A stretch of 64,000 nucleotides of DNA. Origin: Devosia sp. Root413D1 (lineage in GTDB: Bacteria > Pseudomonadota > Alphaproteobacteria > Rhizobiales > Devosiaceae). Location of the stretch: contig NZ_LMEA01000014.1 in the NCBI RefSeq assembly GCF_001425235.1, positions 56,795 to 120,794 on the forward strand. The letters are read 5' to 3'. A model generated the notes under the pieces. That model did not search any database. It worked only from the letters and a program-made list of their open reading frames with translations, and was not told the origin of the DNA. Position 1 is the first letter of the stretch. Every line of letters begins with the position of its first letter. Positions 4,283 through 23,767 of this stretch are shown one piece after another. Made by a program: the position numbers and the translations under genes.

Positions 4283-4306
4283 GGGCTACCTTCGTTCTAG
4301 GGGTGG

Positions 4307-5227
4307 TCAGGAAATCTTGCGGGCTTTGGCCTGTCGGCGCGCCGCGTAAACGGTGAGCATCACGGCGGGTACGATGTAGGGGATCATCTGCATCAGCTCG
4401 CTGGGCAGGCCCTTGGTCTGCATGGTGATGGCGACGGTTTCGGCAATGCCGAGCACGGCGGCGGCAGCAAAGGTGCCCCAGGCGGTGCCCATGCCCATCA
4501 CCTCGGCGGCGAGCGCGATGAAGCCGCGCCCAGCCGTCATGTTCTGCGCGAACCAGCTGACATAACCCATTGAGAGATAAGCGCCGGCAGCGCCACCGAA
4601 CACGCCCGAGAGGGTCAGCGTATAGAGCTGCACGCGGTTGCGCGAGATACCGGCGGCGGCCGCCGCCTTGGGGTCGGACCCGACGGCGCGGATATGGAGG
4701 CCGAACGGCGTGCGGGCCAGCATGATGGCGACCGCCGGCACGGCGAGGATGGCGAGATAGGTCAGCATATGGTGCCCGGAAAGCAGCGGGCCGAGGATCG
4801 GCACGCCGCCGAGCAAGGGGATGTCGAGATTGGGCAGCACGCCGCTTTTCAGGGCGCCCGACATCCCCTTGTCGCCGGTGGCGAGGAACAGGCCGAGCGT
4901 CGTTGCGGCAAGCGCCGCCATGTTCAACGCGATGCCCGTAATGATGAACTGGGTGCCCAGTCCGTTGATGAAGAACGCCATCAGCGCTCCGAGCAGGCCG
5001 CCGCCGATAAGCGCGGCGAACAGCCCGAGGAACGGGTTGGCGGTGGCGGCGCTGACCAAGACGCCAATCAGCGCACCCGACAGCATGATGCCTTCCATGC
5101 CGATGTTCAGCACCCCGGCGCGATCGGAGATCAGCACGCCCAAGGCCGCCAGCAGCAGCGGGGTCATCACCCGCAGCACGGTGGCGAAAACGGCGGGGTC
5201 GGCGATGGCGCCAAAGAACTCGATCAT
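4307..5227 (-). CDS. BMP-type ABC transporter permease (second subunit)
   Basis: A 306-residue polytopic membrane protein of the BPD_transp_2 family, with the signature 'RAGVLNIGMEGIMLSGA' after the first membrane helices and 'RAVGSDPKAAAAAGISRN', the cytoplasmic coupling region. It resembles the YufQ-like subunit of nucleoside importers. Its start overlaps the stop of the other permease by 4 bp (ATGA), so the two are translationally coupled. With the other permease, the ATPase and the BMP binding protein it should form one importer for a nucleoside-like substrate. Membrane topology predicts about eight to nine helices. Confidence 0.9.
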   Translation of the reverse strand: MIEFFGAIADPAVFATVLRVMTPLLLAALGVLISDRAGVLNIGMEGIMLSGALIGVLVSAATANPFLGLFAALIGGGLLGALMAFFINGLGTQFIITGIALNMAALAATTLGLFLATGDKGMSGALKSGVLPNLDIPLLGGVPILGPLLSGHHMLTYLAILAVPAVAIMLARTPFGLHIRAVGSDPKAAAAAGISRNRVQLYTLTLSGVFGGAAGAYLSMGYVSWFAQNMTAGRGFIALAAEVMGMGTAWGTFAAAAVLGIAETVAITMQTKGLPSELMQMIPYIVPAVMLTVYAARRQAKARKIS

Positions 5228-6291
5228 GCGCCTTGCTCCTGACCCTTGATGTCGCGGATCAGCCGCAGGAAGGCCGGGTGGCGGAAGATGGCGGCGGCGG
5301 TGACCGCCAGCATGATGGCGGCGGTGACCAGCCCGACGATCTCGCTGGGCACGTCGAGATTGCGCGCCAGCATGTCGCCGCCGACCTGGAGATAAGCGAG
5401 GAACAGAGCCGCGGGGATGACGAGGAACGGGTTCTCGCGGGCGAGGATGGCAACGGTGATGCCGGTCCAGCCGTGGCCGGGCAGCCCGGTCCAGGAGAAG
5501 CGGCTATAGAGCCCGAGCACCTCGATGGCGCCGGCCATGCCGGCGATCAGCCCGCCGGCGATCTGCGCCTGCATCAGGAGTTTCGACGAGGCGAGGCCGA
5601 GATGGCTGGCAAAGCCGGGGCTCGAGCCGACGATGCGGACATTGAGGCCGGAGCGGGTGCCATAGAGCCAGATGCCGCCGAGGAGGCAGGCGACGAAGGC
5701 GATGATCACCCCGGTATGGAGGCGGGTGCCCTGCAGCAGCCGATCGAGGGTAAAATCACCGGGGAGTTTGTAGGACATCAGCGCCCCGGCATTGGGGTCG
5801 CGCAGCACGTAGTTGAGTACATAGACGCCGGCGAACAGGAAGGCGAAGTTCAGCACCAGCGAGTTGACCATCTCGGAAGCGCCGAAGCGCACGCGCAGGT
5901 AACCCGGGACGATACAGGCGAGCGAGCCGACCAGCGCTCCGACCAGGATGGCGGCAGGCGTCGCGACAAAGCCGGTGAGCGGCAGCAGCACGGCGGTCGC
6001 CGCAGCGGCGAGGCCGCCGAGAAAGAAGCTGCCCTCGACGCCGAGGTTGAACATGCCGGCGCGGAAAATGATGGTGGCGGCAAGCCCGGTCATCATGGTC
6101 GGCGTCGCTGCTTCGAGGATATTGCCCATATGGCGGATGGTGCCGAACGGGCCGAGGACGAAGAGCCGCAGCACCTCGAGCGGATCCGGCTGCGACAGCG
6201 CCAGCGGCACCAGCACGGCGAGGATCACCAAGCCGATGACCAGGGCAGTGAGAGCGAATTCGGTGAGGCCGGCGAGAATGGAGCGGGTCAT
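5224..6291 (-). CDS. BMP-type ABC transporter permease (first subunit)
   Basis: A 355-residue integral membrane protein of the BPD_transp_2 family, resembling the YufP-like subunit. 'FRAGMFNLGVEGSFFLGGLAAA' is the family signature, and 'GSSPGFASHLGLASSKLLMQAQIAGG' forms the coupling loop. It overlaps the upstream ATPase stop and the downstream permease start by 4 bp each, so the whole importer is one tightly coupled operon read leftward from 8948. It forms the transmembrane channel with its partner. Confidence 0.9.
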   Translation of the reverse strand: MTRSILAGLTEFALTALVIGLVILAVLVPLALSQPDPLEVLRLFVLGPFGTIRHMGNILEAATPTMMTGLAATIIFRAGMFNLGVEGSFFLGGLAAAATAVLLPLTGFVATPAAILVGALVGSLACIVPGYLRVRFGASEMVNSLVLNFAFLFAGVYVLNYVLRDPNAGALMSYKLPGDFTLDRLLQGTRLHTGVIIAFVACLLGGIWLYGTRSGLNVRIVGSSPGFASHLGLASSKLLMQAQIAGGLIAGMAGAIEVLGLYSRFSWTGLPGHGWTGITVAILARENPFLVIPAALFLAYLQVGGDMLARNLDVPSEIVGLVTAAIMLAVTAAAIFRHPAFLRLIRDIKGQEQGA

Positions 6292-7832
6292 GCGGCCGTC
6301 TCCAGACCGAGCATATAGGGGCCGAGCGCGGCGGGCGTCAGGCCGGCATGGTTTTGGAGGTCGGCGACGATTTTGCCGTTGAACAGCACCAGCACCCGGT
6401 CGGCGAGGCGCAGCAGCTCATCGAGATCGGCGGTGATCAGCAGCACGGCGGCGCCGTCGCGGGCGGCGAGGTCGATGCGGCCGTGCAGCAGGGCGGCGGC
6501 GGCGACATCGACGCCGCGGGTCGGCTGGTCGGCGATCAGCAGTTTCGGCGAACCGGCAAGCTCGCGCGCGGCGATCAGTTTCTGGGCGTTGCCGCCCGAC
6601 AGCGAATCCAGCCGTTCGCCGGTGCCGCCGGCCCGCACGGCGTAATCGGCGATCATCTGCTGCACCCGCTTGCGGATAGCGCCGCGACGGAGGAACGGGC
6701 CCCATTGCAACGCCTTGTCGCCATCGGTGCCGGCAATGGCGTTGTCGGCGAGGCTCAAGGCGGCGGTGCCGCCGCGGGCGTAGCGATCGGCGGGCAGGTA
6801 AGCGAGGCCGGCCTTGCGCCAGTCGGGCGCGGCGGCGCGTGACATGTCGGCGTCGGCGAGCCGGACGCTGCCGCTGGCCGGATGCATCAGCCCGCTCAGC
6901 ACGCCGACGAGGCCGCGCTGGCCGCTGCCATCGACCCCGGCAATGCCGACGATCTCGTCGGCGCGGATCGAAAGCGAGATGTCCTCGATGCGGTCGGCGG
7001 GGTCGCGCGAGCGGGTGGAGACGCGGTCGAGTTCGAGCACCACCGGCGCGTCGGTGCGCTGGCGCTGGCGGCGCGGCACATCGACATCGCGGCCCATCAC
7101 CATGCGGGTGATTGTGGTGTCGTCGACCTCGGCAAGCGGCGTGGTGCCCACCACCCTGCCGGCGCGCAGTACGGTGACGGTTTCGGCCAGCGCCCGCACT
7201 TCGTGCAGCTTGTGGGAGATGAAGAGGATGGTCATGCCGGCGGCGCAGAGGTCGCGCAGGCGGTTGAACAGCTCTTCGATTTCGGGCGGCGACAGCACCG
7301 CGGTCGGTTCGTCGAGGATGAGAAGGCGAGTATCGCGCGACAGGGCTTTCAAAATCTCGACCTTCTGCTGCGCTGCGACCGACAGGGTGTCGGTGCGCGC
7401 ATCGGGGTCGACCGCGAGATCGAAGCGCTGAGTCAATTCAACCACCTGGCGGCGCGCCTTGCTGCGATCGATGAAGATCGAGCGGCGCGGCTCGTGGCCG
7501 AGGATGATGTTCTCGGTGACAGTGAGGATGGGAACCAGCGAGAAATGCTGGTGCACCATGCCGATGCCGTGCTTGCCGGCGAAATCGGGCGTCGCGGTGT
7601 CGACCGCGGCGCCATCGATCAGGACCTGTCCGGCGCTCGGACTTTCGAGCCCGAACAGGATCTTCATCAGCGTGGATTTGCCGGCGCCATTCTCGCCGCA
7701 GATGGCATGGATCGATCCCCTCCGAATATCGAAGCTGGCATCGGTGAGGGCCACAGTGCCGTTCGGGTAGGTCTTCGACACTCCCCGGAACGAGACAATG
7801 GGGCCCTCGGCCAGGTGCGGCGAGTTGCTCAT
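6288..7832 (-). CDS. BMP-type ABC transporter ATP-binding protein
   Basis: A 514-residue protein with two nucleotide-binding domains in tandem, typical of sugar and nucleoside importers. The first has Walker A 'GENGAGKST', Q-loop 'MVHQHF', a diverged signature 'LSVAAQQKVEI' and Walker B 'LLILDEPTAVL'. The second has a degenerate Walker A 'GVDGSGQRG' but a good signature 'LSGGNAQK' and 'LIADQPTRGVD'. Such asymmetry is normal in the family. It follows the binding protein gene by 6 bp and overlaps the permease gene by 4 bp. It energises uptake through the two permeases. Confidence 0.92.
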   Translation of the reverse strand: MSNSPHLAEGPIVSFRGVSKTYPNGTVALTDASFDIRRGSIHAICGENGAGKSTLMKILFGLESPSAGQVLIDGAAVDTATPDFAGKHGIGMVHQHFSLVPILTVTENIILGHEPRRSIFIDRSKARRQVVELTQRFDLAVDPDARTDTLSVAAQQKVEILKALSRDTRLLILDEPTAVLSPPEIEELFNRLRDLCAAGMTILFISHKLHEVRALAETVTVLRAGRVVGTTPLAEVDDTTITRMVMGRDVDVPRRQRQRTDAPVVLELDRVSTRSRDPADRIEDISLSIRADEIVGIAGVDGSGQRGLVGVLSGLMHPASGSVRLADADMSRAAAPDWRKAGLAYLPADRYARGGTAALSLADNAIAGTDGDKALQWGPFLRRGAIRKRVQQMIADYAVRAGGTGERLDSLSGGNAQKLIAARELAGSPKLLIADQPTRGVDVAAAALLHGRIDLAARDGAAVLLITADLDELLRLADRVLVLFNGKIVADLQNHAGLTPAALGPYMLGLETAA

Positions 7833-7838
7833 CGGCGC

Positions 7839-8948
7839 TTACGGACGGACGGCGTCGCGGATGGCGTTGATCGCGGCGGTGTCCATGCCGAAGGCGGTCG
7901 GCACGACCACTTCGCCGGAAGCGATCTTGGCCTTGGCGTCGGCGATGGCGGCCTTGGTCTCGGCCGAAGCGAGCTTTTCGTAATTGCCGGTCTCGACGAT
8001 GCCGACGGCGCCTTCAGCGAGCCCGACCGTTTCGGCCGAACCGAAGGGGAGCTTGCCCTCCTTGTAGAGGTCGTAGGCGCGAACGAGGCTGACATCGACG
8101 TTCTTCAGCACCGAGCTCACCACCTGGCTGGCAATCGCCGGATCGCTCTCGGCGAAGATCGCTTCCTGGTCGGAATCGACGCCGAGCACGAACTTGCCGG
8201 TTTCCTTGGCGGCAGCGGCCTGGCCGAGGCCGGCCTGCGAGGCGGCGATGAAGCCGAGCGCCACGCCGGAGCGATACTGGGCGAGCCCCAGTTCCTTGCC
8301 CTTGGCTGCATCGGTGAACGAGCCGGCATAGGCGACGGAGACCTTGATGTCTGGGGTGACCGACTGGGCGCCGGCGATGTAGCCGACGAGGAAGTCGTTG
8401 ATGACGGGGATATCCATGCCGCCGAGGAACCCGAGCGCCGTGCCGGCGTCAGCCGGCAGGCCCGACTTCAAGAGGCCGGCGGCGAGGATGCCGCCGAGAT
8501 AGGAGCCTTCGTTCTGCTTGTACTGGACGGCGTAGACGTTGGGGTAGGCGCCGCCTTCGAAGGGGAGGCTCGCATCGAACAGGATGTACTTCTTGTCCGG
8601 GTACTGCTCGGCCACGGCGCCCAGGGTTTCGCTGAGCGAGAAGGTGCCGCCGATGATCAGGTCCCAATCCTGCTCGGAGACTTCGAGCAGCGCCGGCTCC
8701 CAGCCGGTCGGATCGTCGCCGATCTCGAGCACCTTGGTCTCGACCTCGTCGCCGTACTTCGCCTTGATTTGCTCGATGCCCTTGTTGGCCGAGTCGAAGA
8801 ACGACTTGTCGCCGAGCGCACCGTTGACCAGCAGCAGCACCTTGTCGGCGGCGAGGGCGCCGGCGGCAGTGGCGGCGAGCAGCGCGGTGGCGCTGACCAG
8901 CCCGAGGGCAGCGCGGCGCAGCGCCACGCGGGTAACCGATTTAGTCAT
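7839..8948 (-). CDS. BMP family ABC transporter substrate-binding protein
   Basis: A 369-residue exported protein. A Sec signal peptide ends near residue 33 ('AAGALA|ADKV'), and the mature part has the BMP/PnrA fold with 'LLLVNGALGDKSFFDSANKGI' at the start, 'LGFLGGMDIPVINDFLVGY' in the middle and 'VLGVDSDQEAIF' later. BMP proteins bind purine or pyrimidine nucleosides and related compounds in the periplasm. It is the first gene of the leftward importer operon and faces the LacI regulator across a 175-bp intergenic region that contains a dyad. The ligand is inferred to be nucleoside-like because an ADP-ribosylglycohydrolase closes the operon. Confidence 0.9.
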   Translation of the reverse strand: MTKSVTRVALRRAALGLVSATALLAATAAGALAADKVLLLVNGALGDKSFFDSANKGIEQIKAKYGDEVETKVLEIGDDPTGWEPALLEVSEQDWDLIIGGTFSLSETLGAVAEQYPDKKYILFDASLPFEGGAYPNVYAVQYKQNEGSYLGGILAAGLLKSGLPADAGTALGFLGGMDIPVINDFLVGYIAGAQSVTPDIKVSVAYAGSFTDAAKGKELGLAQYRSGVALGFIAASQAGLGQAAAAKETGKFVLGVDSDQEAIFAESDPAIASQVVSSVLKNVDVSLVRAYDLYKEGKLPFGSAETVGLAEGAVGIVETGNYEKLASAETKAAIADAKAKIASGEVVVPTAFGMDTAAINAIRDAVRP

Positions 8949-8981
8949 GAAAAACTCCTCCAGAGCGATCCGATGAAACTG

Positions 8982-8996
8982 AACGATCAGGTCGTT
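8982..8996. promoter_or_regulatory. candidate LacI-type operator
   Basis: Inverted repeat AACGA-TCAGG-TCGTT in the divergent gap between the BMP operon (start 8948) and the LacI-family gene (start 9124). It is 34 bp upstream of the binding-protein ATG, a place where repressor binding would block transcription. Binding is inferred. Confidence 0.45.
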
Positions 8997-9123
8997 TAAT
9001 CGTGTAAATAGATAAGCGAGGTGCTATAGGGGGAGTCAAGACGGATTTCGTCGTAGTCCGCTAACCACTTGGCAGCGCTACGAACTTCGTCCACAGATGG
9101 CGACGGCGGGGCATGGAGATCAG

Positions 9124-10116
9124 ATGAGCAGGGGCAGGAGCCCGACCATCAAGGATGTGGCGAAAGTCGCCGGGGTCTCCTCGGCGACGGTGTCCTATGT
9201 TCTCAACGATCTCAACAAGGTAACGCCGGAAGTTGATGCGCTGGTTCGGCGCGTGGCGAAGGAGCTCGGCTACTCGCGCAACAATGCGGCGCGGGCGCTG
9301 AAGACCGGCCGCAACAACATTATCGGCTGTATCCTGCCCACCCTCACCAGCCCGGTGTTCCCGGAAATCGCCCAGGCGGTGCAGTTGCGGGCCGAGGCGC
9401 ATGGCTATGCGACGCTGGTGATCGATTCCGGCAATGCGCCGATGCGCGAGGAAAAGGTGGTGCGCACCCTCGCCAAGCATGGCGTCGATGGCGCGGTGGC
9501 GCTCTTACACCCCAACTTCAAGTTGGCCGACCCGCCGCTGTTCCCGATCGTCTCACTCGACGCAAAATTCCCCGGGCTCGACAGCGTGCATGCCGATCAT
9601 TATGCGGGCGGCCGGCTGATGGCCGAGCACGCCATCGCGCTTGGGCATCGCTGTATCGGCATGCTCTCGGGCTTCCAGGATCTCACCAGCAGCTTCGAGC
9701 GCCGCCAGGGGTTCGTCGATGCGGCAGCGGGGCGGGTGGAGCTGGTATGGGAAGTGAACGTCCAGCTGGTGCCGCAACTGCCGCCGGAAGCGGTGGCAGC
9801 GATCCGCCGGCGCGAGGTGACGATGATCGCCTGCGTCAACGACCTCGTCGCCATCGCGGCGCTGAGCGTCTTGAAGGATAGCGGCATGAGCGCGCCGGGC
9901 GATGTATCGGTGTTCGGCTTTGACGACATGCAATGGGCGAGCTGGCCGCTGATCGATTTGACCACCATCCGCCAGCCGCTGGCCGAGCTCGGCAGCCGCG
10001 CCGCGGACCTGTTGATCTCGCGGCTCGACGATCGGCAGCGGCCGGTCGTGGATGTGGTGCTGCCGGTGACACTGGTCGAACGCGGTTCGACGGCGCGGGT
10101 GCCCCCTCTCCCCTGA
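9124..10116 (+). CDS. LacI family transcriptional regulator
   Basis: A 330-residue protein with the LacI headpiece 'TIKDVAKVAGVSSATVSYVLN' at residues 7-27 and a hinge helix with 'NNAARALKTGRNN', followed by a periplasmic-binding-protein-like effector domain ('IIGCILPTLTSPVFPEIAQAV', 'DDMQWASWPLIDLTTIRQPL'). The ATG at 9124 is chosen over one 27 bp upstream because GGAG precedes it and the headpiece begins a few residues later. It is divergent from the BMP importer operon and most likely represses it until its nucleoside- or sugar-like ligand appears. The regulator-target link is inferred from orientation. Confidence 0.9.
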   Translation: MSRGRSPTIKDVAKVAGVSSATVSYVLNDLNKVTPEVDALVRRVAKELGYSRNNAARALKTGRNNIIGCILPTLTSPVFPEIAQAVQLRAEAHGYATLVIDSGNAPMREEKVVRTLAKHGVDGAVALLHPNFKLADPPLFPIVSLDAKFPGLDSVHADHYAGGRLMAEHAIALGHRCIGMLSGFQDLTSSFERRQGFVDAAAGRVELVWEVNVQLVPQLPPEAVAAIRRREVTMIACVNDLVAIAALSVLKDSGMSAPGDVSVFGFDDMQWASWPLIDLTTIRQPLAELGSRAADLLISRLDDRQRPVVDVVLPVTLVERGSTARVPPLP

Positions 10117-10348
10117 GAGGAGAGGGAAGTGCAGCTAGGACCGTGAGGTCCGTAGCGAAACTCGGGTGAGGGGTTCAGCTTCTCTGCGAGCGCGAGTTGC
10201 GCCGCTTCACCCCTCATCCGGCGCTTCGCGCCACCTTCTCCCCTGAGGGGAGAAGCGACCCGACTGGGACGCCGGAGATGCCCGCCATTCATCGCCGGTG
10301 TGCTTGGCTACCCCTCACCCTGACCCTCTCCCCAGAGGGGAGAGGGGA
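10100..10348. repeat. cluster of CTCTCCCCTNAGGGGAGAG extragenic repeats
   Basis: Three stem-forming copies of TCTCCCCTGAGGGGAGA-like sequence, at about 10105-10125, 10232-10252 and 10325-10346, are separated by 'CCTCATCCGGCGCTTCGCGCC'-like spacers. Similar clusters occur at 26781-26952 and 23768-23957. They fill the gap 10117-10414, where I see no gene. Confidence 0.7.
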
Positions 10349-10414
10349 CGCACTCGGCGTGGGTCCGGTGATGCGGCTCGACCGTCCGGGTCGAAACGGC
10401 TTAGGGTTCGAGCG

Positions 10415-10732
10415 ATGCACAACCACTATTCCACCGATGTCGAAGGCGGCGCGCCGGTACGGCGGCGCTATGCGATCAGCGGCCGGCTGGAGGTGGCGAG
10501 CTATCTGGAATTCGTCGCCGAGCGCGCCCGCTGGCTCGATATCCGCGGCTGGGTGAGCGCCGACGGATCGGCGGTGACGCTGGTCGCGGCCGGGCCTGAG
10601 GCGCTGGTCGGGGCGCTGGAAATGGCCTGCACGCTCGGACCGCTCGAAGCGCTGGTCGAAACGATCGAGGCTGTGGACGAGGCGGGGCCGGTGGGGAATG
10701 GGTTTGAGGTGCGGGGTGGGGTTTCGCGCTGA
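10415..10732 (+). CDS. acylphosphatase-like protein lacking the catalytic residues
   Basis: A 105-residue protein whose fold pattern matches acylphosphatase: a strand with G-R-x-x at 23-26, 'FVAERARWLDIRGWVSADGSA' (33-53) and the 'GPLEALVETIE' block (75-85). Acylphosphatases use an Arg in the G-x-V-Q-G-V-x-F-R loop and an Asn in the GWVxN turn. By motif alignment these are Leu31 and Ala49 here, so normal catalysis is unlikely. It may be a binding or structural relative or a decaying copy. The ATG at 10415 follows 'TTCGAGCG' and no good ribosome site. It stands alone between the LacI gene and the convergent GST gene. Confidence 0.6.
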   Translation: MHNHYSTDVEGGAPVRRRYAISGRLEVASYLEFVAERARWLDIRGWVSADGSAVTLVAAGPEALVGALEMACTLGPLEALVETIEAVDEAGPVGNGFEVRGGVSR

Positions 10733-10806: not shown

Positions 10807-11430
10807 CTAAAAGTAATCCGGCACTCCCGGCATCCCCACAAATCCCGGGAGCTTGCGCACCTGGCGTTGCCAGAGGTTGATTGCCGGATAATCCTCGTGG
10901 CCGATGCCGGCGTCGTGGCTTAGCGCGACGTAGGGGAACATGGCGATGTCGGCGATGGTGGGGGTGGCGCCGACCAGCCATAGGCCGCCGGCCTGGGCGC
11001 GGTCGGCGAGGTGGTCGTCGAGGAGGCGGAGGGCGGCGCGGGCCTTGGCCTGCAGCGCGGCGAGATCGCCGGCGTAGTTCAGCATGGCGATCATCCGGGC
11101 GCCGGAAATGGCCATCAGCTCGCCGCCGGCAAAGCTCAGCCACATCATCACGGAACCGAAGCGCACGTCGCGCGGCAGCCACTGGCCTGACGCGTCGTAG
11201 GTGTTGGCGAGGTGGCAGAGGATCGCCTGGGCGTCGCGGAGGACGAGGCCGGCGTCTTCGAACACCGGCAGCTGGCCGAGCGGGTTGAGCGCCAGGAATT
11301 CCGGACGCTTGTGCTCGCGGCCGGGGAAGAAGTCGACGGCCTGGGTTTCGTAGGCGATGCCGAGCAGGCTGAGCAGCAGGCGCACCTTGTAGCAGCTGCC
11401 CGAGAGCACATAGTCGTAGAGCTTAGGCAT
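10807..11430 (-). CDS. glutathione S-transferase-like protein, possible NdmE-type partner of the adjacent oxygenase
   Basis: A 207-residue two-domain GST-fold protein. The thioredoxin-like domain (about 1-80) has 'LSGSCYKVRLLLSLLGI', the cis-Pro 'GQLPVFED' and 'LRDAQAILCHLA'; the helical domain has 'LVGATPTIADIAMFPYV', the family's N-capping box. Its start overlaps the stop of the Rieske-less oxygenase gene by 8 bp, so it is the third gene of the oxygenase operon. In Pseudomonas NdmCDE, a GST-like protein (NdmE) is a structural partner of a Rieske-less oxygenase (NdmC) and a reductase carrying the extra Rieske cluster (NdmD). Here it could be a scaffold or an ordinary glutathione-dependent enzyme. 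Confidence 0.85.
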   Translation of the reverse strand: MPKLYDYVLSGSCYKVRLLLSLLGIAYETQAVDFFPGREHKRPEFLALNPLGQLPVFEDAGLVLRDAQAILCHLANTYDASGQWLPRDVRFGSVMMWLSFAGGELMAISGARMIAMLNYAGDLAALQAKARAALRLLDDHLADRAQAGGLWLVGATPTIADIAMFPYVALSHDAGIGHEDYPAINLWQRQVRKLPGFVGMPGVPDYF

Positions 11431-12301
11431 GCGGCAGGTCCGTACTCTGCAGGTCCGTTCTGGGTTCCGTGCCGAAGCGGAGCTGCTTTTCCTTAAGCCA
11501 GCGGCGGTAGAGCACCGAGCTCAAATCGGCGCGGGTCGGGGTTTCGCGGCCCGGCTGCAGCGGCAGCAGTGAAGGGCGCTGGTTCTCGAGCACGATCTTG
11601 TCCTGGACGAAGATCATCTGCTGGAAGGCGCTGAGTTCGGCATCGGTGCTGGTCAAGTCGATCACCAGCATGAAGGCATGCGCCACCGACACCGCCTCAT
11701 CGGCGGGCTGCACGAACAGCGCGATGACGTCCCAGCGATCGGGTGCGGTGGGCGGGGTCTTGTAGAGCATGACGTTGAAGGGGCTCACCACCCGGTACAT
11801 GTACTTGCTGATCTGGCCCTCGTCGGAGGCGGCGGCGGCCTTGGGCTGGTAGAACTCGCATTTGGTGGCCCAGAGCTCATCGACGTCGCGACGCTGCTCG
11901 ACCTCGTATCTGGCCACCTCCGGATGCGCCTCGGAGCCGAGGATATCGGTGTGGACATAGGGGAAGTGGGCCAGATCGAGGAAATTCTCGACCAGCCGCA
12001 GGCCGGAGGCGCGGACGCGGACCGGGCCGCAATGGATCCAGCGCCGATCCGGTTCGCGGCTTTCGGGCAGCTCGAACAAGTCGCGCTCCGGCGTACCGAA
12101 ACTGGTCCACAGGTGCCCGTAATCGGTGCGGACGGGGAGGGCGCGGCCGGCGGCACGGACCTCGACGTCATCGGTAAGCCGGCGGACGGTGAGATCTTCA
12201 CCGAGGAGGCGGGAGGGGACCTCGGCACCAGCGGGGAAATCCTGGAGCGCGCCGAGCGTGTACCACTGGTCGAGCGCGGCCCGGTCGTCGGTGAGGCTCA
12301 T
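11423..12301 (-). CDS. Rieske-type ring-hydroxylating oxygenase catalytic subunit without a Rieske cluster site
   Basis: A 292-residue protein of the VanA/Ndm type. The mononuclear iron ligands are visible as D109-x2-H112-x4-H117 in 'NFLDLAHFPYVH', with the later Asp in 'FVQDKIVLENQ' (D234). The N-terminal part keeps the Rieske-domain framework: 'WYTLGALQDFPAG' and 'RLLGEDLTVRRL' run almost directly into 'TDYGHLWTSFG'. The roughly 60-residue segment that should carry C-x-H and C-x2-H is missing, so the protein has no cluster of its own. It is about 60 residues shorter than full-length VanA-like enzymes. The upstream gene, overlapping by 4 bp, encodes a protein with that cluster motif. NdmC of caffeine-degrading Pseudomonas has the same deficiency. 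The substrate is unknown; N-demethylation or hydroxylation are both possible. Confidence 0.85.
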   Translation of the reverse strand: MSLTDDRAALDQWYTLGALQDFPAGAEVPSRLLGEDLTVRRLTDDVEVRAAGRALPVRTDYGHLWTSFGTPERDLFELPESREPDRRWIHCGPVRVRASGLRLVENFLDLAHFPYVHTDILGSEAHPEVARYEVEQRRDVDELWATKCEFYQPKAAAASDEGQISKYMYRVVSPFNVMLYKTPPTAPDRWDVIALFVQPADEAVSVAHAFMLVIDLTSTDAELSAFQQMIFVQDKIVLENQRPSLLPLQPGRETPTRADLSSVLYRRWLKEKQLRFGTEPRTDLQSTDLPHA

Positions 12302-12906
12302 GCGGCGGCTTCCTGTTCGAGGCTTTGGCGCAGGGCCCGCAGGTGCGCCGTGGCGGCGGCGATATCGGCGCCGGCCCCAGTCGCGTGCAGCATGGTTTTT
12401 GCGGCATGGGCGCGGTGCCAGCCGAGCTGCAGGGTGCCGCCGGCGAAGGGTAGCCCGATGAGCGGCTCGGCGGTCGAGCCGCCCAGCGCGGCAAGCACAC
12501 GTTCGGGGGCCGCTTCGATGGCGAGGGTGATCACCGGGGTTAGCGCGGGCAGCAGCGGCGGTGGGTCGGCGCTGTCGCTGCTCATCCAGACCATGCCGCC
12601 GGTCTCGGTCGCCGCATAGGCATTGGCGCGGATGGTGGGCGGTACGGTCAGATCCGGGTGGGCCGGGATGCGGAGGCAGTTGGCGCCGGCGCCATATTGC
12701 CAGCCGTGGTAGAGGCAGTTCAGCGCGTTGCCGCGCACGAAGCCGAGGCTCAGCCGCATGCCGCGATGCGGGCAGCGATCCTCCCAGACCTGCGCCACGC
12801 CATCCTCGCCACGCCAGATCATCACCTCGCGGGTGTCGACGATCACCGCCCGGGTAATGCCGACGGGCACATCGCGGCTCAGGGCAATCGGTATCCAGTC
12901 AGCCAT
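12298..12906 (-). CDS. stand-alone Rieske [2Fe-2S] protein, probable electron donor for the adjacent oxygenase
   Basis: A 202-residue protein with a Rieske domain in residues 1-115. The cluster ligands C45, H47 ('DRCPHRGMRLS') and C64, H67 ('NCLYHGWQYG') are intact, and the oxygenase-like features 'IPAHPDL' and 'GMVWMSSD' follow. The C-terminal 85 residues are not a catalytic oxygenase domain: there is no D-x2-H-x4-H motif, and they include 'LQLGWHRAHAAKTMLHATG' and a helical tail. It is the first gene of the leftward operon and overlaps the Rieske-less catalytic subunit gene by 4 bp. I infer that it supplies the missing cluster in trans. No flavin or ferredoxin reductase gene is nearby, so the final reductase must come from elsewhere. 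Confidence 0.85.
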   Translation of the reverse strand: MADWIPIALSRDVPVGITRAVIVDTREVMIWRGEDGVAQVWEDRCPHRGMRLSLGFVRGNALNCLYHGWQYGAGANCLRIPAHPDLTVPPTIRANAYAATETGGMVWMSSDSADPPPLLPALTPVITLAIEAAPERVLAALGGSTAEPLIGLPFAGGTLQLGWHRAHAAKTMLHATGAGADIAAATAHLRALRQSLEQEAAA

Positions 12907-13193: not shown

Positions 13194-14297
13194 ATGACAC
13201 TAACCGCTATCTCACGCCGCAGGTTGCTCAAGGTCGGTGCAGCCGGGCTTGCCGCATCGGCGCTGCCGTTCGGGATCGCCCGGGCGCAGACCAATGTCGT
13301 GCTGGGCATTGTCTATGTCGGGCCGAAGGACGATTTCGGCTGGAACCAGGCGCATGCCGTATCGGTGGAATCGCTGAAGGCACTGCCCGGCATCACCGTG
13401 GTGGAAGAAGAGAATGTGCCCGAGACCGACGCCGTGGCCAAGTCCATGGAGTCGATGATCAACCTCGATGGCGCCAACCTGATCCTCGCCACCTCGTTCG
13501 GCTATTACAACCCGTTCGTGGTCGAGCTGGCCAAGAAGTATCCTGACGTCACCTTCCGGCACGCGGCGCCCTTGTGGAACAAGGACAAGGACCCGGCCAA
13601 TGCCGGCTCGTATTTCCCGTACCTGAACCAGGCGCATTACGTGAACGGCGTGGCCGCCGGGCTCTCGTCGGGCGGCAAGATCGGGTTCGTCGCGGCCAAG
13701 CCCATTCCGTCGGTGCTGTCCAATATCAACTCGGCGCTGCTCGGGGCGCGTTCGGTGAACCCCAACGCCACGGTGCAGGTGATCTTCACCGGCGAGTGGA
13801 GCCTGCCGGTGCGCGAGGCCGAGGCCACCAATGCGCTGGTCGATGCCGGCTGCGAAGTCATCACCTGCCATGTGGACAGCCCGAAGGTGGTGATCGAGAC
13901 CGCCGAGGGGCGCGGGGTGAAGACCGCCGGCCACAATGCCAGCCAAGCGCCGCTGGCGCCCAAGGGCTTCATCACCGGCGCCGAATACAAGTGGGAGACG
14001 ATCTACAAATCCTACGCCGACGATATCGCCGCCGGTAAAACCCCGCCCAATTTCCTGGTCGGCGGCTACAATAACGACATGCTGCGCAACACGCCCTATG
14101 GCGCGGGTGCGACGCCCGAGGCGATCGCCGCAGCCGACGCCGCCATCGCCGCGCTGGTCGCTGGCGCCCCGATCTACAAGGGCACGCTCAAGGACAATGC
14201 CGGCAACGTCGTCGTCGACAAGGACTACGACAATTACGACCCGTATCTCGACGGCATGAACTGGCTGCTCGAGGGCGTGCAGGGGTCGATTACGTGA
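13194..14297 (+). CDS. BMP family ABC transporter substrate-binding protein, Tat-type signal
   Basis: A 367-residue exported protein. The N-terminus 'SRRRLLKVGAAGLAASALPFG' is a twin-arginine signal with a cleavage site near 'ARA|QTN', unlike the Sec signal of the other BMP protein here. The mature part has the BMP/PnrA fold ('VLGIVYVGPKDDFGWNQAHA', 'GKIGFVAAKPIPSVLSNINS'). It starts a rightward operon with two permeases, formamidase, biuret hydrolase and the ATPase. Because those enzymes lie between importer genes, the ligand is probably a nitrogen-rich heterocycle or ureide, not a plain nucleoside. That is inference. Confidence 0.9.
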   Translation: MTLTAISRRRLLKVGAAGLAASALPFGIARAQTNVVLGIVYVGPKDDFGWNQAHAVSVESLKALPGITVVEEENVPETDAVAKSMESMINLDGANLILATSFGYYNPFVVELAKKYPDVTFRHAAPLWNKDKDPANAGSYFPYLNQAHYVNGVAAGLSSGGKIGFVAAKPIPSVLSNINSALLGARSVNPNATVQVIFTGEWSLPVREAEATNALVDAGCEVITCHVDSPKVVIETAEGRGVKTAGHNASQAPLAPKGFITGAEYKWETIYKSYADDIAAGKTPPNFLVGGYNNDMLRNTPYGAGATPEAIAAADAAIAALVAGAPIYKGTLKDNAGNVVVDKDYDNYDPYLDGMNWLLEGVQGSIT

Positions 14298-14468: not shown

Positions 14469-15584
14469 ATGACCGCTGAAACCGCCGACACCGCCGCGAT
14501 CCCGGCCAAGGCCGGGCCGAGCCTCGGCCTGCTCCGCCTCGCCGAGGCGGTGAGCATTCCGGTGGGGGCGCTCGTCGTTTCGGCGGTGTTGTTCGCGCTG
14601 TTCCTGCTCGCCATCGGCAAGGACCCGCTGCAGTTCTACCAGTTGATCTGGACCGGTGGCTTCGGCTCGTCCTTCTCGATCCAGAATTCTCTGCAGCGCG
14701 CCGCGCCGCTGATCCTTACGGGCCTGGCCTTCGCCATTCCGGCGCGCATCGGGCTCACCATGATCGGCGGGGAAGGGGCGCTGGTGCTGGGCGGCTTCAG
14801 CGCTGCCGCCATCGCCATCCCGCTGGTCTCGAGCGCCGTGCCGCCGCCGCTGACGCTGCTCATCATGGCGCTCACCGCGGTGGTGACCGGCGGGCTGTGG
14901 GTGGGGTTCACTGGCTGGCTCAAATATGCGCGCGGTGTCAACGAGACCATCGCCTCGCTGCTGATGAGCTACATCGCCATCGCCATCATGAACTTCTTCG
15001 TCGAGGGGGCGCTGCGCGACCCGGCGTCGGCCAACAAGCCCTCGACCATGCCGATCGGCGATGCCTACCGGATCGGGGCGATCCCCGGCACCGACGTGCA
15101 CTGGGGCTTTGCGGCGGGCGTGGTGCTGGCGCTGCTGCTCTGGGTGCTGATGAGCCGCACCACGTTTGGCTTTGCGGCGCGGATGACCGGCGGCAACCTC
15201 CGAGCCGCCCGGGCGCAGGGTCTGCCGGTGGGCTGGCTGATGGTGGTCTGCTGCGCCATTGCCGGCGCCGCCGCCGGGCTCGCCGGCTTCTTCGAAGTCG
15301 CGGCGATCCACGGCCAGGCCAATGCCTCGCTGGTCGCCGGCTATGGCTTTACCGGCATTCTCGTTGCCTTCCTCGCGCGGCAGAACCCACTGGCGGTGAT
15401 CCCGGTGGCGATCCTCTTCGGGGCGCTGGCGGCGGCCGGTGGGGTGATCCAGCGGCGGATGGGGATGCCCGATGCGACGATCCTGGTGCTGCAGGGGATG
15501 ATGTTCGTGGTGCTCCTGGTGTCGGAGACGTTCTACGGGCGGCTGAAGATCTTCCAGCCCAAGGCAACGGGGGAGCGGACTTGA
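14469..15584 (+). CDS. BMP-type ABC transporter permease (first subunit)
   Basis: A 371-residue integral membrane protein of the BPD_transp_2 family, with 'RIGLTMIGGEGALVLGGFSAA' (the family signature) and 'ARMTGGNLRAARAQGLPVGW', the coupling loop. A 30-residue hydrophilic N-terminus precedes the first helix. The stop overlaps the next permease start (TGATG), showing translational coupling. A 171-bp gap with a palindromic element separates it from the binding-protein gene. It forms the importer channel with the next gene product. Confidence 0.9.
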   Translation: MTAETADTAAIPAKAGPSLGLLRLAEAVSIPVGALVVSAVLFALFLLAIGKDPLQFYQLIWTGGFGSSFSIQNSLQRAAPLILTGLAFAIPARIGLTMIGGEGALVLGGFSAAAIAIPLVSSAVPPPLTLLIMALTAVVTGGLWVGFTGWLKYARGVNETIASLLMSYIAIAIMNFFVEGALRDPASANKPSTMPIGDAYRIGAIPGTDVHWGFAAGVVLALLLWVLMSRTTFGFAARMTGGNLRAARAQGLPVGWLMVVCCAIAGAAAGLAGFFEVAAIHGQANASLVAGYGFTGILVAFLARQNPLAVIPVAILFGALAAAGGVIQRRMGMPDATILVLQGMMFVVLLVSETFYGRLKIFQPKATGERT

Positions 15585-16501
15585 TGGACAACGCGCTGGT
15601 CACCGTGCTCATCGCCATGCTCGGCGGCGCCATCCGGGTGTCGACGCCCTTCATGTTCGTGGCGCTGGGCGAAACGCTCACCGAGAAATCGGGGCGCATC
15701 AATCTGGGGCTCGAGGGCAACCTGGTGCTCGGCGCCATGGTCGCCTACGCGGTGAGTTACCTGAGCGGCAATGCCTGGCTGGGGGTGCTCGCCGCCGGCG
15801 GTTCGGGGCTCTTCCTGGGGGCGCTGCACGGCTATATCTGCAAGCTGCCGCGGGTCAACGACATCGCCGTCGGCATCGCCATGATGAGTTTCGGCACCGG
15901 CCTCGCCTTCTTTTTCGGCAAGCCGTTCATCCAGCCGACCGCGCCGCGGCTCGACGCCATTCCGCTGGGCGATTGGACCGGCAACCCGGCTCTGGCCCAG
16001 GCGCTGCAGGTCAACCCGCTGTTCTTTGTCGGCATCGCGCTTGCCGTCTTCATGTTCTGGGCCTTCAGGAATACCCGCTGGGGCCTGATCGTGAGGATGA
16101 CCGGCGACAGCGCCGCCTCGGCCAAGGCGATGGGCGTATCGGTCGACCTGGTGCGCTTCCTCGCCACCGCGGCAGGCGGCTTTCTCGCCGGGATCGGCGG
16201 GGCGTTCCTGTCGCTCTACTATCCGGGCAGCTGGAACCAGGGGCTCAGCTCCGGCCAGGGGCTGATGGCGGTGGCGCTGGTGATCTTTGCGCGCTGGGAC
16301 CCGATCAAGTGCATCTTCGCGGCGCTGCTGTTCGGGGCCGCCGGAGCCCTCGGGCCCTCGCTGCAATCGATCGGCATTTCCCAGGGCTACTACTTCTTCA
16401 ACGCCGCCCCCTACATCCTGACGCTGATCATCATGATCATTTCCGCCGGCTCGAAAGCCGCGGCGCGGGATGTGCCGGGCGAACTGTCGATCACCAAGTA
16501 G
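15584..16501 (+). CDS. BMP-type ABC transporter permease (second subunit)
   Basis: A 305-residue membrane protein with 'EKSGRINLGLEGNLVLGAMVAY' (family signature) and 'RMTGDSAASAKAMGVSVDLVR' (coupling loop). The ATG overlaps the stop of the preceding permease. It is followed after 27 bp by formamidase. This pair lacks an adjacent ATPase gene; the only matching ATPase is two genes downstream at 18261, so the enzymes between them belong to the same transcription unit. Confidence 0.9.
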   Translation: MDNALVTVLIAMLGGAIRVSTPFMFVALGETLTEKSGRINLGLEGNLVLGAMVAYAVSYLSGNAWLGVLAAGGSGLFLGALHGYICKLPRVNDIAVGIAMMSFGTGLAFFFGKPFIQPTAPRLDAIPLGDWTGNPALAQALQVNPLFFVGIALAVFMFWAFRNTRWGLIVRMTGDSAASAKAMGVSVDLVRFLATAAGGFLAGIGGAFLSLYYPGSWNQGLSSGQGLMAVALVIFARWDPIKCIFAALLFGAAGALGPSLQSIGISQGYYFFNAAPYILTLIIMIISAGSKAAARDVPGELSITK

Positions 16502-16528: not shown

Positions 16529-17545
16529 ATGAGCGGACTTGGCGGTCTCAACAAATCCGACAATGGCGTGGTGATCGGGCTGGTGCAGCTGCAACTGCCG
16601 GTGGTGGCAACGCCCGCCGACCTCAAGCGGCAGACGGCGCGGATCGTCGAGATGGTCGGCAAGGCGCGACGGAACCTCGGGACCATGGATCTCGTGGTGT
16701 TCCCCGAATACGCGCTGCACGGGCTGTCGATGGATACCAACCCGGCGATCATGTGTTCGCTGGATGGGCCGGAGGTCGCGGCGTTCAAGGCGGCCTGCAA
16801 GGAGCACCGGATCTGGGGGTGCTTCTCGATCATGGAGCTCAACCCCGGCGGCAACCCGTACAATTCCGGCATCGTCATCAATGATCAGGGCGAGCTGAAG
16901 CTCTACTATCGCAAGCTCCACCCGTGGGTGCCGGTGGAACCCTGGGAGCCGGGCAATCTCGGCATTCCCGTCATCGAGGGTCCGAAGGGCGCCAAGCTCA
17001 GCCTGATCATCTGCCACGACGGCATGTTCCCCGAGATGGCCCGCGAGGCGGCCTACAAGGGGGCCGAGATCATGCTGCGCACTGCCGGCTACACCGCCCC
17101 GATCCGGCAGGCCTGGCGCTTCACCAACCAGGCCAACAGTTTTCACAACCTGATGGTGACGGCCAATGTCTGCATGTGCGGCTCGGACGGCACCTTCGAC
17201 TCGATGGGCGAGGCGATGATCGTCGATTTTGACGGCTCCATTATCGCCCAAGGCACGACCGGGCGGGCCGACGAGATCATCACCGCCGAGGTGCGCCCCG
17301 ACCTGGTGCGCGAGGCGCGGGCCAACTGGGGCGTCGAGAACAACATCTACCAGCTCGGTCACCGCGGCTTCACCGCCGTCGACGGTGGCGCGCAGGATTG
17401 CCCGTACAGCTTCATGCACGATCTCGTCGCCGGACAGTACCGGTTGCCCTGGGAGGCGAGCGTGAAAGTCACCGACGGCACGCCCTCGGGCTTTGCCAAG
17501 CCGACCCGCCGCTATGGCGAGACATTGCAGGAGGCTGCCGAATGA
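16529..17545 (+). CDS. amiF: formamidase (nitrilase superfamily)
   Basis: A 338-residue protein very close in pattern to AmiF formamidases. The nitrilase triad is visible as Glu60 ('[11 protein letters not shown]'), Lys129 ('[14 protein letters not shown]') and Cys162 ('[12 protein letters not shown]'). The lengths and the N-terminal '[20 protein letters not shown]' are also typical. It should hydrolyse formamide to formate and ammonia in the cytoplasm. The ATG at 16529 matches the family N-terminus. Its stop overlaps the biuret hydrolase start by 4 bp. Placement inside a BMP importer operon suggests that formamide or a related amide is released during breakdown of the imported compound. Aliphatic amidase is less likely given the overall motif match. 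Confidence 0.88.
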
Positions 17546-18261
17546 GCCTTGCCGACGAACGGATCGATGCTGCTGCCGTGCCCGGCGGCAAGACCATCGC
17601 CTCGACGCCCTATGCCTGGCCCTATGACGGCGACCTCAGGCCCGACAATACCGTGCTGGTGGTCATCGACATGCAGACCGATTTCTGCGGGCCTGGCGGC
17701 TATGTCGACTCGATGGGCTACGACATCTCGCTGACCCGGGCTCCCATTGAACCGCTGAAGCGGCTGATGGCTGCGTTCCGGGCCAAGGGCTATCCGATCA
17801 TCCACACCCGCGAAGGCCACAAGCCGGACCTCAGCGACCTGCCGTCCAACAAGCGCTGGCGGTCGCAGCGGATCGGCGCCGGCATCGGCGACCAGGGGCC
17901 GCAGGGGCGCATCCTGGTGCGGGGCGAGCCGGGCTGGGAGATCATCCCGGAACTGGCGCCGGCACCGGGCGAGGCGATCATCGACAAGCCGGGGAAGGGC
18001 TCGTTCGCCTCCACCGACCTCGAGCTGATCCTCAGGCTCAAGGGCATCCGCAACATCGTGCTCACCGGCATCACCACCGATGTCTGCGTCCACACCACGA
18101 TGCGCGAGGCCAATGATCGCGGCTTCGAATGCGTGCTGCTCGAGGATTGCTGCGCCGCCACCAAATACGACAACCACCTCGCCGCCATCGACATGATCAA
18201 GATGCAGGGCGGGGTGTTCGGCGCGGTCGCGACGTCCGCCGCACTCATCGAGGTGCTGTGA
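17542..18261 (+). CDS. biuH: biuret amidohydrolase-like cysteine hydrolase (isochorismatase fold)
   Basis: A 239-residue isochorismatase-fold amidohydrolase. The catalytic triad is Asp43 ('VVIDMQTDF'), Lys149 ('[10 protein letters not shown]') and Cys182 ('[11 protein letters not shown]'). Each lies seven residues later than the positions I recall for Rhizobium BiuH, and segments such as '[13 protein letters not shown]' and '[15 protein letters not shown]' match it closely. BiuH splits biuret to allophanate and ammonia. The ATG overlaps the formamidase stop, and the stop overlaps the ATPase start (TGATG). An allophanate hydrolase gene is present 5 kb away, which strengthens the call. RutB-like ureidoacrylate hydrolase is the main alternative. 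Confidence 0.82.
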
Positions 18262-19775
18262 TGGCCGGTCGCGCGCCTTCGCTCGAAGCCATCGGCATGA
18301 CCAAGGTGTTCGGGCCGCTGGTGGCGCTCGACGATGTGTCGATCAAGGTCGAAGCCGGCTCGTTCCATGCACTGCTCGGCGAGAACGGCGCCGGCAAGTC
18401 GACGCTGGTCAAATGCATCATGGGCTTTTACAGCGCCGACAAGGGGCAGGTCCGGCTCGACGGCCAGGAAGTCTCGATCCGCTCGCCGCGCGACGCGCGG
18501 GCCAATGGCATCGGCATGGTCTACCAGCAGTTCACCCTGGTGCCGTGCCTCAACGGGGCGGAGAACCTGGTGATCTCGCGCGCCGATGCGCCGGCGATTA
18601 TCGACTGGGCCAAGGAGAAAAAGCACCTCGACGCCTTCATGGCCGAGATGCCGTTCCGGGTGCCGATGAATACGCCGGTCTCGTCGCTGTCGGCGGGCGA
18701 AAAGCAGAAGCTCGAAATCCTGAAGCTGCTCTATCTCGACCAGCGCTTCATGATCCTCGACGAGCCGACCTCGGTGCTGACACCGGGCGAGGCCGACGAA
18801 ATGCTAGGGCTCTTGGGCGGCATGGCCGACCGCAAGGAGATCACCGTGCTGATGATCTCGCACAAGTTCCGCGAGGTGAAGGCGTTCTGCGACCACTTCA
18901 CCGTGCTGCGGCGCGGCCGCTTCACCGGGGCGGGCGATGCCAAGACGGTGAGCGTGCCGGACATGAGCGCCATGATGATCGGCGATACGGCGATCCGCGA
19001 ACGCGCGGCACGCAAGAAGCACAATGAAGGGGCCGACCGGCTGGAGCTCGCGGGGCTGTTCGCCGAGGACAATGACGGGCTGCCGGCGATCAAATCGGTA
19101 AATCTCAAGGTGAAAGCCGGCGAGATCGTCGGCATTGCCGGGGTGTCGGGCAACGGGCAATCGGCGCTGGTCGAGGCGCTCTCCGGGCAGCGGCCGCTGT
19201 CGGATGGCGGCATCTACATCAATGGCGAATTCTTCCGGCCCAAGCGCGGATCGTTCGATCGCTACAAGGTGTTCGGGCTGCCCGAGGAGCCGCTGAAGAA
19301 CGCCACCGTGCCGCGGATGAGCGTCGCCGAGAACCTGGCGTTCCGCTCGTTCGACAAGCCGCCGGTGGCCAAGCTCGGCTGGTGGATGTCGCCCGGGCCG
19401 ATGCGCGAGAAGGCCAAGGAATTGATCGCCAAATACCGGGTGAAAACCCAGGGGCCGGATGCGCCGATCGAGACGCTGTCGGGCGGCAATGTGCAGCGGG
19501 CAGTGCTGGCACGCGAGCTCAGTGGCGACGTCGACGTGCTGATCGTCGCCAACCCCTGCTTCGGGCTGGATTTCGCCTCGGTGGCCGATATCCGCAGCCA
19601 GATCATGGAGCAGCGCAACCGCGGGGCGGCAGTGCTGCTGGTGAGCGAGGACCTCGACGAGATCCTCGAACTCGCCGACCGGGTAGCGGTGATGAGCGGG
19701 GGGACGATCAACTACGTGGCCCGCATCGAGGACACTGACCGGAACACCATCGGACAACACATGGCGGGACATTGA
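18261..19775 (+). CDS. BMP-type ABC transporter ATP-binding protein
   Basis: A 504-residue tandem-domain ATPase. The first domain has Walker A 'GENGAGKSTLVKC', signature 'LSAGEKQKLEIL' and Walker B 'FMILDEPTSVLTP'. The second has a degenerate Walker A 'GVSGNGQSALVEALSG', signature 'LSGGNVQRAVLARELS' and 'LIVANPCFGLDFASV'. It starts inside the biuret hydrolase stop codon, so an enzyme and a transport subunit are translationally coupled. It drives the importer formed by the genes at 13194-16501. A 342-bp gap of repeats follows. Confidence 0.92.
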   Translation: MAGRAPSLEAIGMTKVFGPLVALDDVSIKVEAGSFHALLGENGAGKSTLVKCIMGFYSADKGQVRLDGQEVSIRSPRDARANGIGMVYQQFTLVPCLNGAENLVISRADAPAIIDWAKEKKHLDAFMAEMPFRVPMNTPVSSLSAGEKQKLEILKLLYLDQRFMILDEPTSVLTPGEADEMLGLLGGMADRKEITVLMISHKFREVKAFCDHFTVLRRGRFTGAGDAKTVSVPDMSAMMIGDTAIRERAARKKHNEGADRLELAGLFAEDNDGLPAIKSVNLKVKAGEIVGIAGVSGNGQSALVEALSGQRPLSDGGIYINGEFFRPKRGSFDRYKVFGLPEEPLKNATVPRMSVAENLAFRSFDKPPVAKLGWWMSPGPMREKAKELIAKYRVKTQGPDAPIETLSGGNVQRAVLARELSGDVDVLIVANPCFGLDFASVADIRSQIMEQRNRGAAVLLVSEDLDEILELADRVAVMSGGTINYVARIEDTDRNTIGQHMAGH

Positions 19776-19914
19776 GATGGACGCTGCGACCGCGACAGGG
19801 CAGACGAAACCCCAGAGCTGGGGCAGAGGCTGGCGGTGGGCAGCGCCGGGTGAGGGGGCCCTCGATTGGGTCCGTGGCAGGGGCCCCCTCACCAGACTGA
19901 TTGGCGCAACCGAG

Positions 19915-20042
19915 CGTGGGGCCACCCCCCTCCCAACCTCCCCCACAAGGGGGGAGGTGCCGGCCGGCGCTTGGGGCACGACCGTGCCAGGAACTGGGTC
20001 TGCCACCTCCCCCCTTGTGGGGGAGGCCGGGAGGGGGGTGGC
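19915..20042. repeat. extragenic inverted repeat (CCCCCCTCCC...GGGAGGGGGG type)
   Basis: Left part 'CCCTCCCAACCTCCCCCAC' is mirrored by the right part 'GTGGGGGAGGCCGGGAGGGG', with inner ACAAGGGGGGAGGT stems. A similar unit lies at 56388-56546. It occupies the gap 19776-20117 between the ATPase gene and the second hydrolase gene; no gene is seen there. Confidence 0.7.
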
Positions 20043-20117
20043 CGCAGGCGCCGGCCCCGCCGACTACCTCGTCCTCCACATCCCCTGCCGCGGCTCCTTC
20101 GTCATGGATGTCCGCCG

Positions 20118-21160: not shown

Positions 21161-21190
21161 ATCACAACTACGCAGGGACTAGAGGGGACT

Positions 21191-21832: not shown

Positions 21833-21887
21833 GGGAGCGCGGGCGGTGCCGTAATCCTCCCCCGCCACGCGGGGGAGGATGGGCTGC

Positions 21888-23600: not shown

Positions 23601-23729
23601 GGCTCGGCCCTCGATGATGGTCGAGCTGATTATGCACAGTCTGGCGGAGCGGCCTACGGAGATGTGTGCATTGGCGAGTGATATGCAGAAAAAATGTGCA
23701 GATGTGATCTGGATGCACGAAGTGATGCA
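23596..23729. promoter_or_regulatory. cluster of TGCA-core sites in the allophanate hydrolase promoter
   Basis: Seven TGCA cores at 23596, 23633, 23667, 23684, 23697, 23714 and 23726 lie in an unusually AT-rich stretch, several as ATGCAC, GTGCAT or ATGCAG. Their density suggests a multi-site operator. Similar cores occur in the divergent promoter at 12939-12961. No gene lies between 23601 and 23984. Confidence 0.45.
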
Positions 23730-23767
23730 GGTGGGGCTGTTTGACATGGCCAGTGGCACAGCCACAC

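Follow-up and report, generated by a model that had tools for sequence, protein, structure and literature searches.

How can a Rieske oxygenase work when its two metal sites are encoded by separate genes? The question is raised by a locus of Devosia sp. Root413D1 (Alphaproteobacteria; assembly GCF_001425235.1), which we have analyzed within a window of 64,000 nucleotides (contig NZ_LMEA01000014.1, positions 56,795 to 120,794; coordinates below are those of this window unless a locus is named). The open reading frame (ORF) listing gives three overlapping genes on the minus strand of 10807-12906. RSK (12298-12906, 202 amino acids, aa) is a free Rieske [2Fe-2S] protein akin to the N-terminus of NdmD, CAT (11423-12301, 292 aa) is a Rieske-less oxygenase catalytic protein akin to NdmC, and the third is a GST-like partner akin to NdmE (10807-11430, 207 aa). 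RSK and CAT overlap by 4 bases, CAT and the GST-like gene by 8. We think it probable that this trio is a two-protein oxygenase of the NdmCDE type, in which RSK and CAT are copies of one ancestral subunit that lost opposite metal sites, the GST-like protein being a probable structural subunit.

Two metal sites on two proteins

With Pfam, the Rieske domain (PF00355, E 8.8e-19) was found solely in RSK, and no Rieske match appeared in CAT up to E 0.01; CAT matched VanA_C (PF19112, E 2.1e-19), and the third protein has both GST_N (E 4.3e-14) and GST_C. By sequence, the motifs of the functional class, i.e., a Cys2His2 [2Fe-2S] motif plus a 2-His-1-carboxylate motif with a bridging Asp, are provided by the RSK-CAT pair and by neither protein alone. 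A first-pass annotation of the window had described this arrangement, with four iron ligands on one protein, the cluster motif on a separate small protein with a C-terminal extension, and an overlapping GST-like gene, and all of it held. The iron ligands of CAT are D109, H112 and H117 (11951-11977, minus strand) and D234 (11600-11602, minus strand), which we take, from the Rieske oxygenase motif, to be the bridging Asp, two iron-binding His and the third iron ligand. The cluster-binding segment of RSK, C45 to H67, lies at 12706-12774 (minus strand).

Conservation was followed in the best 80 of 349 CAT relatives from a contig scan, to which all counts out of 80 refer. Many of these loci are close kin and cut at the flank or at a contig end, so that counts of neighboring genes are not independent. 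Some also overlap: several genomes of the genus, L143 and L144 appear to be the same contigs as loci among the best 80 (L143 is apparently L006). Clustering at 80% identity kept 17 of 81 CAT, 39 of 67 RSK and 27 of 56 GST sequences, from which the trees were built; the CAT alignment comprises 34 of the 81 sequences and the RSK alignment 38 of the 39 representatives, L019, which ends at the locus edge, being left out. The four CAT ligands are invariant in 34/34 aligned catalytic proteins, and C45, H47, C64 and H67 in 38/38 Rieske proteins. By regular expression, DxxHxxxxH occurs in 81/81 catalytic proteins (the 80 relatives and the window, 277-294 aa long with script-chosen starts) and CxH..CxxH in 0/81. 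Among Rieske proteins, CxH..CxxH occurs in 71/73, the remaining two being 69-aa fragments at locus ends, and [DE]xxHxxxxH after residue 110 in 0/73, four of which are fragments ending earlier. The dN/dS of the window genes against three relatives was 0.08-0.43 (nine comparisons).

RSK was found in 72/80 loci; in the other eight, the place expected for it from the gene order of kin falls beyond the flank or contig end. Both genes are on one strand, side by side as in the window, in 8 of these 72 loci, and on opposite strands in 64 (23 near, 41 farther). The 4-base overlap would fit a single gene broken by a sequencing or assembly frameshift, but the lack of the Rieske motif in 80/80 CAT relatives, together with an RSK that is a separate gene in 72 loci and on the opposite strand in 64, makes such an artefact hardly conceivable. 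A frameshift and a Rieske domain hidden in CAT were thus both rejected by motif counts and gene separation; these, and a lack of conservation of the trio, were the findings that the first-pass annotation had named as speaking against it, and the trio turned out to be conserved. Within the genus, 12/19 genomes (own included) have a CAT relative, nine at no less than 76% identity and three at 46-48%, and the two of these three that were looked at more closely (L140, L141) carry the reductase-fused form described below.

Predicted remnant domains

The best solved-structure matches of RSK and CAT are SxtT/GxtA (SxtDIOX) and NdmA/NdmB, which, unlike RSK and CAT, are single full-length subunits with both metal sites. 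Against Protein Data Bank sequences, SxtDIOX/SxtT came first both for RSK (E 9e-24, spanning the N-terminal 110 residues) and for CAT (E 2.5e-20, spanning residues 55-277), with NdmA next in each case; the two proteins match the same solved single proteins in complementary regions. Rieske ferredoxins match RSK weakly (E 3e-4 to 7.5e-4), and this, like the opposite strands in 64/72 loci, is what could be expected if RSK were an ordinary Rieske ferredoxin for other enzymes, with CAT using another electron source. We regard this as very unlikely, as oxygenases match RSK far better, RSK accompanies CAT in 72/80 loci with the other eight explained by locus ends, and no full-length Rieske oxygenase was found in the own genome for RSK to serve. 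Besides, a further domain is predicted in RSK (residues 123-201), and the fold alignment pairs it with catalytic domains of oxygenases, which argues against a single-domain ferredoxin.

The C-terminal extension of RSK as a whole (residues 113-202; 12301-12570, minus strand) looks, in the predicted structure, like a degenerate catalytic domain of an oxygenase, a shrunken and iron-less helix-grip, and this goes beyond the first-pass annotation. The predicted structure has strands at residues 123-130, 149-154, 157-167 and 170-178 and helices at 134-140 and 182-201, and H174 and R193 are invariant in 38/38. In the fold alignment (VIA-align), all 50 matches among those listed were oxygenases, the absence of other folds among them being no evidence. 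When the extension and CAT were compared by hhalign in global mode, the alignments made no sense and were discarded.

Reciprocally, residues 1-75 of CAT (12077-12301, minus strand) appear, from the model and alignments, to be a remnant Rieske framework without its cluster-binding segment. Six strands are confidently modeled between residues 14 and 66, in a block with pLDDT of 90-97, the fold alignment begins at residue 3, and hhalign pairs RSK 5-45 with CAT 13-52 (E 1.5e-4, probability 52%). The phmmer alignment of CAT 4-41 with SxtDIOX 3-40 is insignificant (2.6 bits), and CAT aligns significantly from residue 55 with SxtDIOX from residue 107, so that some 53 residues would be missing, against the roughly 60 given in the first-pass annotation; its claim that the framework strands were kept agrees with the model.

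A simpler history would be one oxygenase gene cut between its domains, with the extension of RSK added later from elsewhere. The complementary matches to the same solved proteins would fit such a fission, and the extension is weakly CAT-like by sequence. However, in the models CAT retains a Rieske framework and RSK a domain of catalytic type, which gives both the look of complete subunits with something deleted and not of protein halves, and we consider a simple fission improbable.

Kinship with NdmCDE

NdmCDE of P. putida CBB5, an N7-demethylase of 7-methylxanthine, resembles the trio in having a Rieske-less catalytic subunit, the Rieske domain on another protein and a GST-like third one. It is reported to contain three of each subunit (3:3:3), with an NdmC that is insoluble alone and an NdmE that is needed for assembly (PMC10380055; papers given by PMC number are cited from excerpts). 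The first-pass annotation had likened the trio to this system, and the trees uphold it for all three parts, which group with NdmC/D/E-type homologues that are plasmid-borne stand-ins. Among annotated plasmids, two architectures can be told apart. In type A (records of P. putida, S. meliloti, Klebsiella and Mesorhizobium), the catalytic protein comes with a Rieske-reductase fusion of 585-588 aa and a GST; in type B (R. tumorigenes, R. johnstonii, Shinella, and likewise the window) the Rieske protein is free, without an adjoining reductase. By sequence, both look like one family, because the trees group their catalytic, Rieske and GST parts. In the catalytic-domain tree (without Pp_RO, missed by the sequence pattern), a branch (96/98) sets all 31 Rieske-less proteins apart; beside them stands the full-length oxygenase L133 (98/94), followed by three NdmA/B-like rows. 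In the Rieske-domain tree (without Kn_RSKb, which lacks one cluster Cys, Kp_RO, which has a longer spacing, and the Rieske ferredoxins) the free and fused parts come together (97/84; 100/98 for the free form and 95/90 for the fused one); L133 follows (95/87) on a branch that is very short, deep forks being soft with 115 columns. The GSTs of both types cluster (97/99) apart from 7/8 other GSTs of the own genome; the eighth, unrelated and on a very long branch, fell inside the cluster. In addition, by profile, the Rieske part of NdmD-type homologues has the same remnant domain as RSK.

The trio is not NdmCDE proper, because the Rieske-reductase fusion that characterizes NdmD is absent: RSK ends after the remnant domain. 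Unlike in NdmCDE, the Rieske protein of the window is a free one, with neither a fused reductase nor one seen in the vicinity, and an acylphosphatase-like gene and a BMP transporter are present. As the first-pass annotation had stated, there is no reductase gene among the genes adjoining the trio, and in the 80 relative loci, taken with flanks of at most 8 kb that are often cut short, no ORF was best matched by an NdmD- or VanB-like query. Homologues of ndmCDE, mainly of Sinorhizobium and Mesorhizobium, are already in print (PMC4408171), and the trio is therefore a variant and not wholly new; of the possible new NdmCDE-type system first suggested for it, the type stands, as a free-Rieske variant, and the full novelty does not. 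Two of these homologues that we examined have the same three parts, both with a BMP transporter and one with a guanine deaminase, but with Rieske-reductase fusions of 588 and 586 aa, unlike the free RSK. In the NdmCDE and Rieske oxygenase literature searched, as excerpts, we found neither a free-Rieske NdmCDE variant nor a remnant catalytic domain in NdmD. The chlorophyllide a oxygenase of Micromonas pusilla is likewise a Rieske oxygenase on two chains; likened here by description, it differs in substrate and setting, and the excerpt mentions no GST (PMC9615114).

Other arrangements of related genes were seen along the way. A Komagataeibacter nataicola plasmid from a kombucha culture (L084, 4935-17000) has two sets with a free Rieske protein, and in addition a VanB-type reductase encoded separately and a pair of full-length oxygenases that by eye resemble NdmA. 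On S. meliloti pSymA (L088, 8977-13237), two Rieske-less catalytic genes in tandem precede a single Rieske-reductase fusion and one GST, which suggests one electron donor for two catalytic subunits. A conjugative Klebsiella plasmid (L089, 6743-18825) carries an ndm-like cluster, made up of a full-length oxygenase gene and genes like those of NdmC, NdmD and NdmE, with a purine permease gene a few kb away. The oxygenase L133, of 336 aa, is identical to that at 7880-8890 of L137, directly after a BMP-type transporter operon; the GST queries used had no match in the stretch around it.

Proposed mechanism

Rieske oxygenases place the cluster of a subunit ca. 12 angstroms away from the iron in its neighbor (PMC12445004, PMC10380055). 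As the cluster serves the iron of a neighbor anyway, a cluster-only and an iron-only protein could work as a pair. The electron path, GST role, electron donor and substrate that we infer are as follows. RSK would be an ancestral full-length subunit that kept its [2Fe-2S] cluster, with the catalytic domain shrunken and iron-less, and CAT one that kept the mononuclear iron site and substrate pocket, plus a bare Rieske framework. Once reduced by a separate, probably housekeeping, reductase, RSK would pass an electron across the subunit interface to CAT, which would activate O2 and oxidize a small nitrogen heterocycle brought in by the neighboring BMP-type transporter; this would most likely be a purine-like or ureide compound, which CAT would N-dealkylate or hydroxylate. 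The GST-like protein would probably be structural, holding RSK and CAT together, as proposed for NdmE, whose assembly role it is expected by analogy to share. A general flavin reductase is the likely electron source; a candidate ORF for one was picked by eye in L097. With somewhat less assurance than for the trio itself, we favor extending the scheme to the entire NdmCDE class, free and fused, which would consist of two reciprocally degenerate subunit copies (a cluster-only pseudo-oxygenase and an iron-only one with an empty Rieske framework) acting as whole-subunit scaffolds, with obligate electron transfer between gene products and a GST fold as assembly subunit.

Several points weigh against this picture. 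That the proteins form a complex is something we only infer. In hhalign, the RSK extension aligns weakly with CAT, over 24 columns (E 0.0025, probability 12%), so that the degenerate-domain step rests mainly on predicted structure, and the CAT model is poor at the active-site loop (residues 114-123, pLDDT <50). A search of the own genome for an electron donor, with one VanB-type query, gave two weak partial matches (best E 8.9e-6). The proteins that we call NdmC, NdmD and NdmE stand in for the characterized CBB5 proteins, the forks that order free and fused forms in the catalytic tree are weak (75/40 and 82/37), and long branches prompted a warning from the program. In one of the Komagataeibacter Rieske partners, a cluster Cys is missing. 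Finally, the system is patchy, since 8/385 genomes in a sample of the class (own included) had a match with an E of 1e-60 or lower, no more than six candidates being scored per genome.

Neighboring genes and the substrate

On the plus strand, next to the GST-like gene, is a small acylphosphatase-like protein (10415-10732; PF00708 24.2 bits against a cut-off of 22.5), whose start we place inside the ORF 10298-10732. A homologue is present in 73/80 relative loci, with the conserved motif EMACSLGP; the Arg and Asn of true acylphosphatases seem to have been lost in the window protein, which may be a further assembly or regulatory factor. Divergent from the trio, and also on the plus strand, are a BMP/PnrA-like ABC substrate-binding protein (13194-14297; PF02608 E 3e-27), two ABC permeases (14469-15584 and about 15581-16501; ORFs homologous to annotated L082 permeases) and an ABC transporter ATPase (18129-19775; an ORF with homologues in relatives, the true start probably downstream of 18129).

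The ureide genes pointed out in the first-pass annotation are real. On the plus strand, they comprise a formamidase (16529-17545; NF009803, 563 bits against 406), the biuret amidohydrolase BiuH (17596-18261; NF050097, 411 bits against 370), a second BiuH-like hydrolase (19866-20783; NF050097, 240 bits, below the cut-off of 370) and an AtzH-like/HpxZ protein (20780-21160; PF11533 E 3.2e-53; NF033625, 181.7 against 135); an allophanate hydrolase follows on the minus strand (21888-23840; NF006043, 803 bits against 487). The second hydrolase is a candidate triuret hydrolase, TrtA having been described as a co-occurring BiuH homologue with about 50% identity (PMC7948467), and the AtzH-like protein is, as a guess, a candidate TrtB-type decarboxylase. 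The set resembles that described for triuret and biuret breakdown, triuret being thought to arise from uric acid oxidation (PMC7948467), and 16529-23840 is a possible triuret/biuret pathway. A GntR regulator lies amid these genes.

What, then, is the substrate? Tentatively, and at somewhat less than even chances, we favor a purine N-demethylase that would turn N-methylguanine or methylxanthine into guanine or xanthine plus formaldehyde and feed guanine deaminase. In the flanks covered, 54 of the 80 loci have a BMP-type binding protein, 43 a guanine deaminase and 21 an amidohydrolase whose best match is the one of the R. johnstonii cluster (itself a below-cut-off match to an 8-oxoguanine deaminase model); these neighbors, non-independent as they are, and the position of the full-length oxygenase L133/L137 after a BMP-type operon favor a purine, as do the kinship with NdmC and the pairing of two split sets with two NdmA-like oxygenases on the kombucha-culture plasmid. 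However, Devosia loci have biuret/triuret hydrolases as partners instead, and the two guanine deaminases of the own genome that score over the cut-off are on other contigs. Alternatively, the Devosia trio might open or dealkylate a ureide- or triazine-like ring, yielding triuret, biuret or formamide, a possibility that we rate as rather unlikely. BiuH is present in 5/7 Devosia-type loci L002-L008 (L003 and L005 end before that place) and in L142, and the window adds the TrtA-like, AtzH-like, allophanate hydrolase and formamidase genes, but formamidase was seen solely in the window, L004 and L006 (as well as in L143, the apparent duplicate of L006) and not in L002, L007, L008 or L142, and the ureide genes form a separate, divergent operon. 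No cyanuric acid hydrolase was matched in the own genome, and the control genomes gave none either. Both estimates are guesses resting on neighborhood, the remainder going to other substrates.

Elsewhere, a search of the own genome for purine genes gave, besides the two guanine deaminases, two MoCoBD_2 matches, one on the same contig outside the window; taken together, these speak neither for a purine substrate nor decisively against it. A TATAAT scan of the window gave one match, which is chance level and has no bearing on the trio. A second BMP-type ABC transporter operon at 2891-10116, which also includes an enzyme of the ADP-ribosylglycohydrolase family (2891-4282) and a regulator of the LacI type (9097-10116), possibly serves the uptake of a nucleoside- or ADP-ribose-like compound.

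Implications

Electron transfer in Rieske oxygenases is believed to run from one subunit to another, and in homotrimers the donor and acceptor subunits cannot be altered separately; with donor and acceptor on different genes, the inter-subunit step becomes directly testable. The trio also suggests how NdmCDE, a complex described in 2026 as structurally unsolved (PMC13237722), may be built, and the reciprocal degeneration proposed here, if true, would also reinterpret NdmD. As predicted from its genes, the trio points to an uncharacterized catabolic system in many rhizobia and their relatives.
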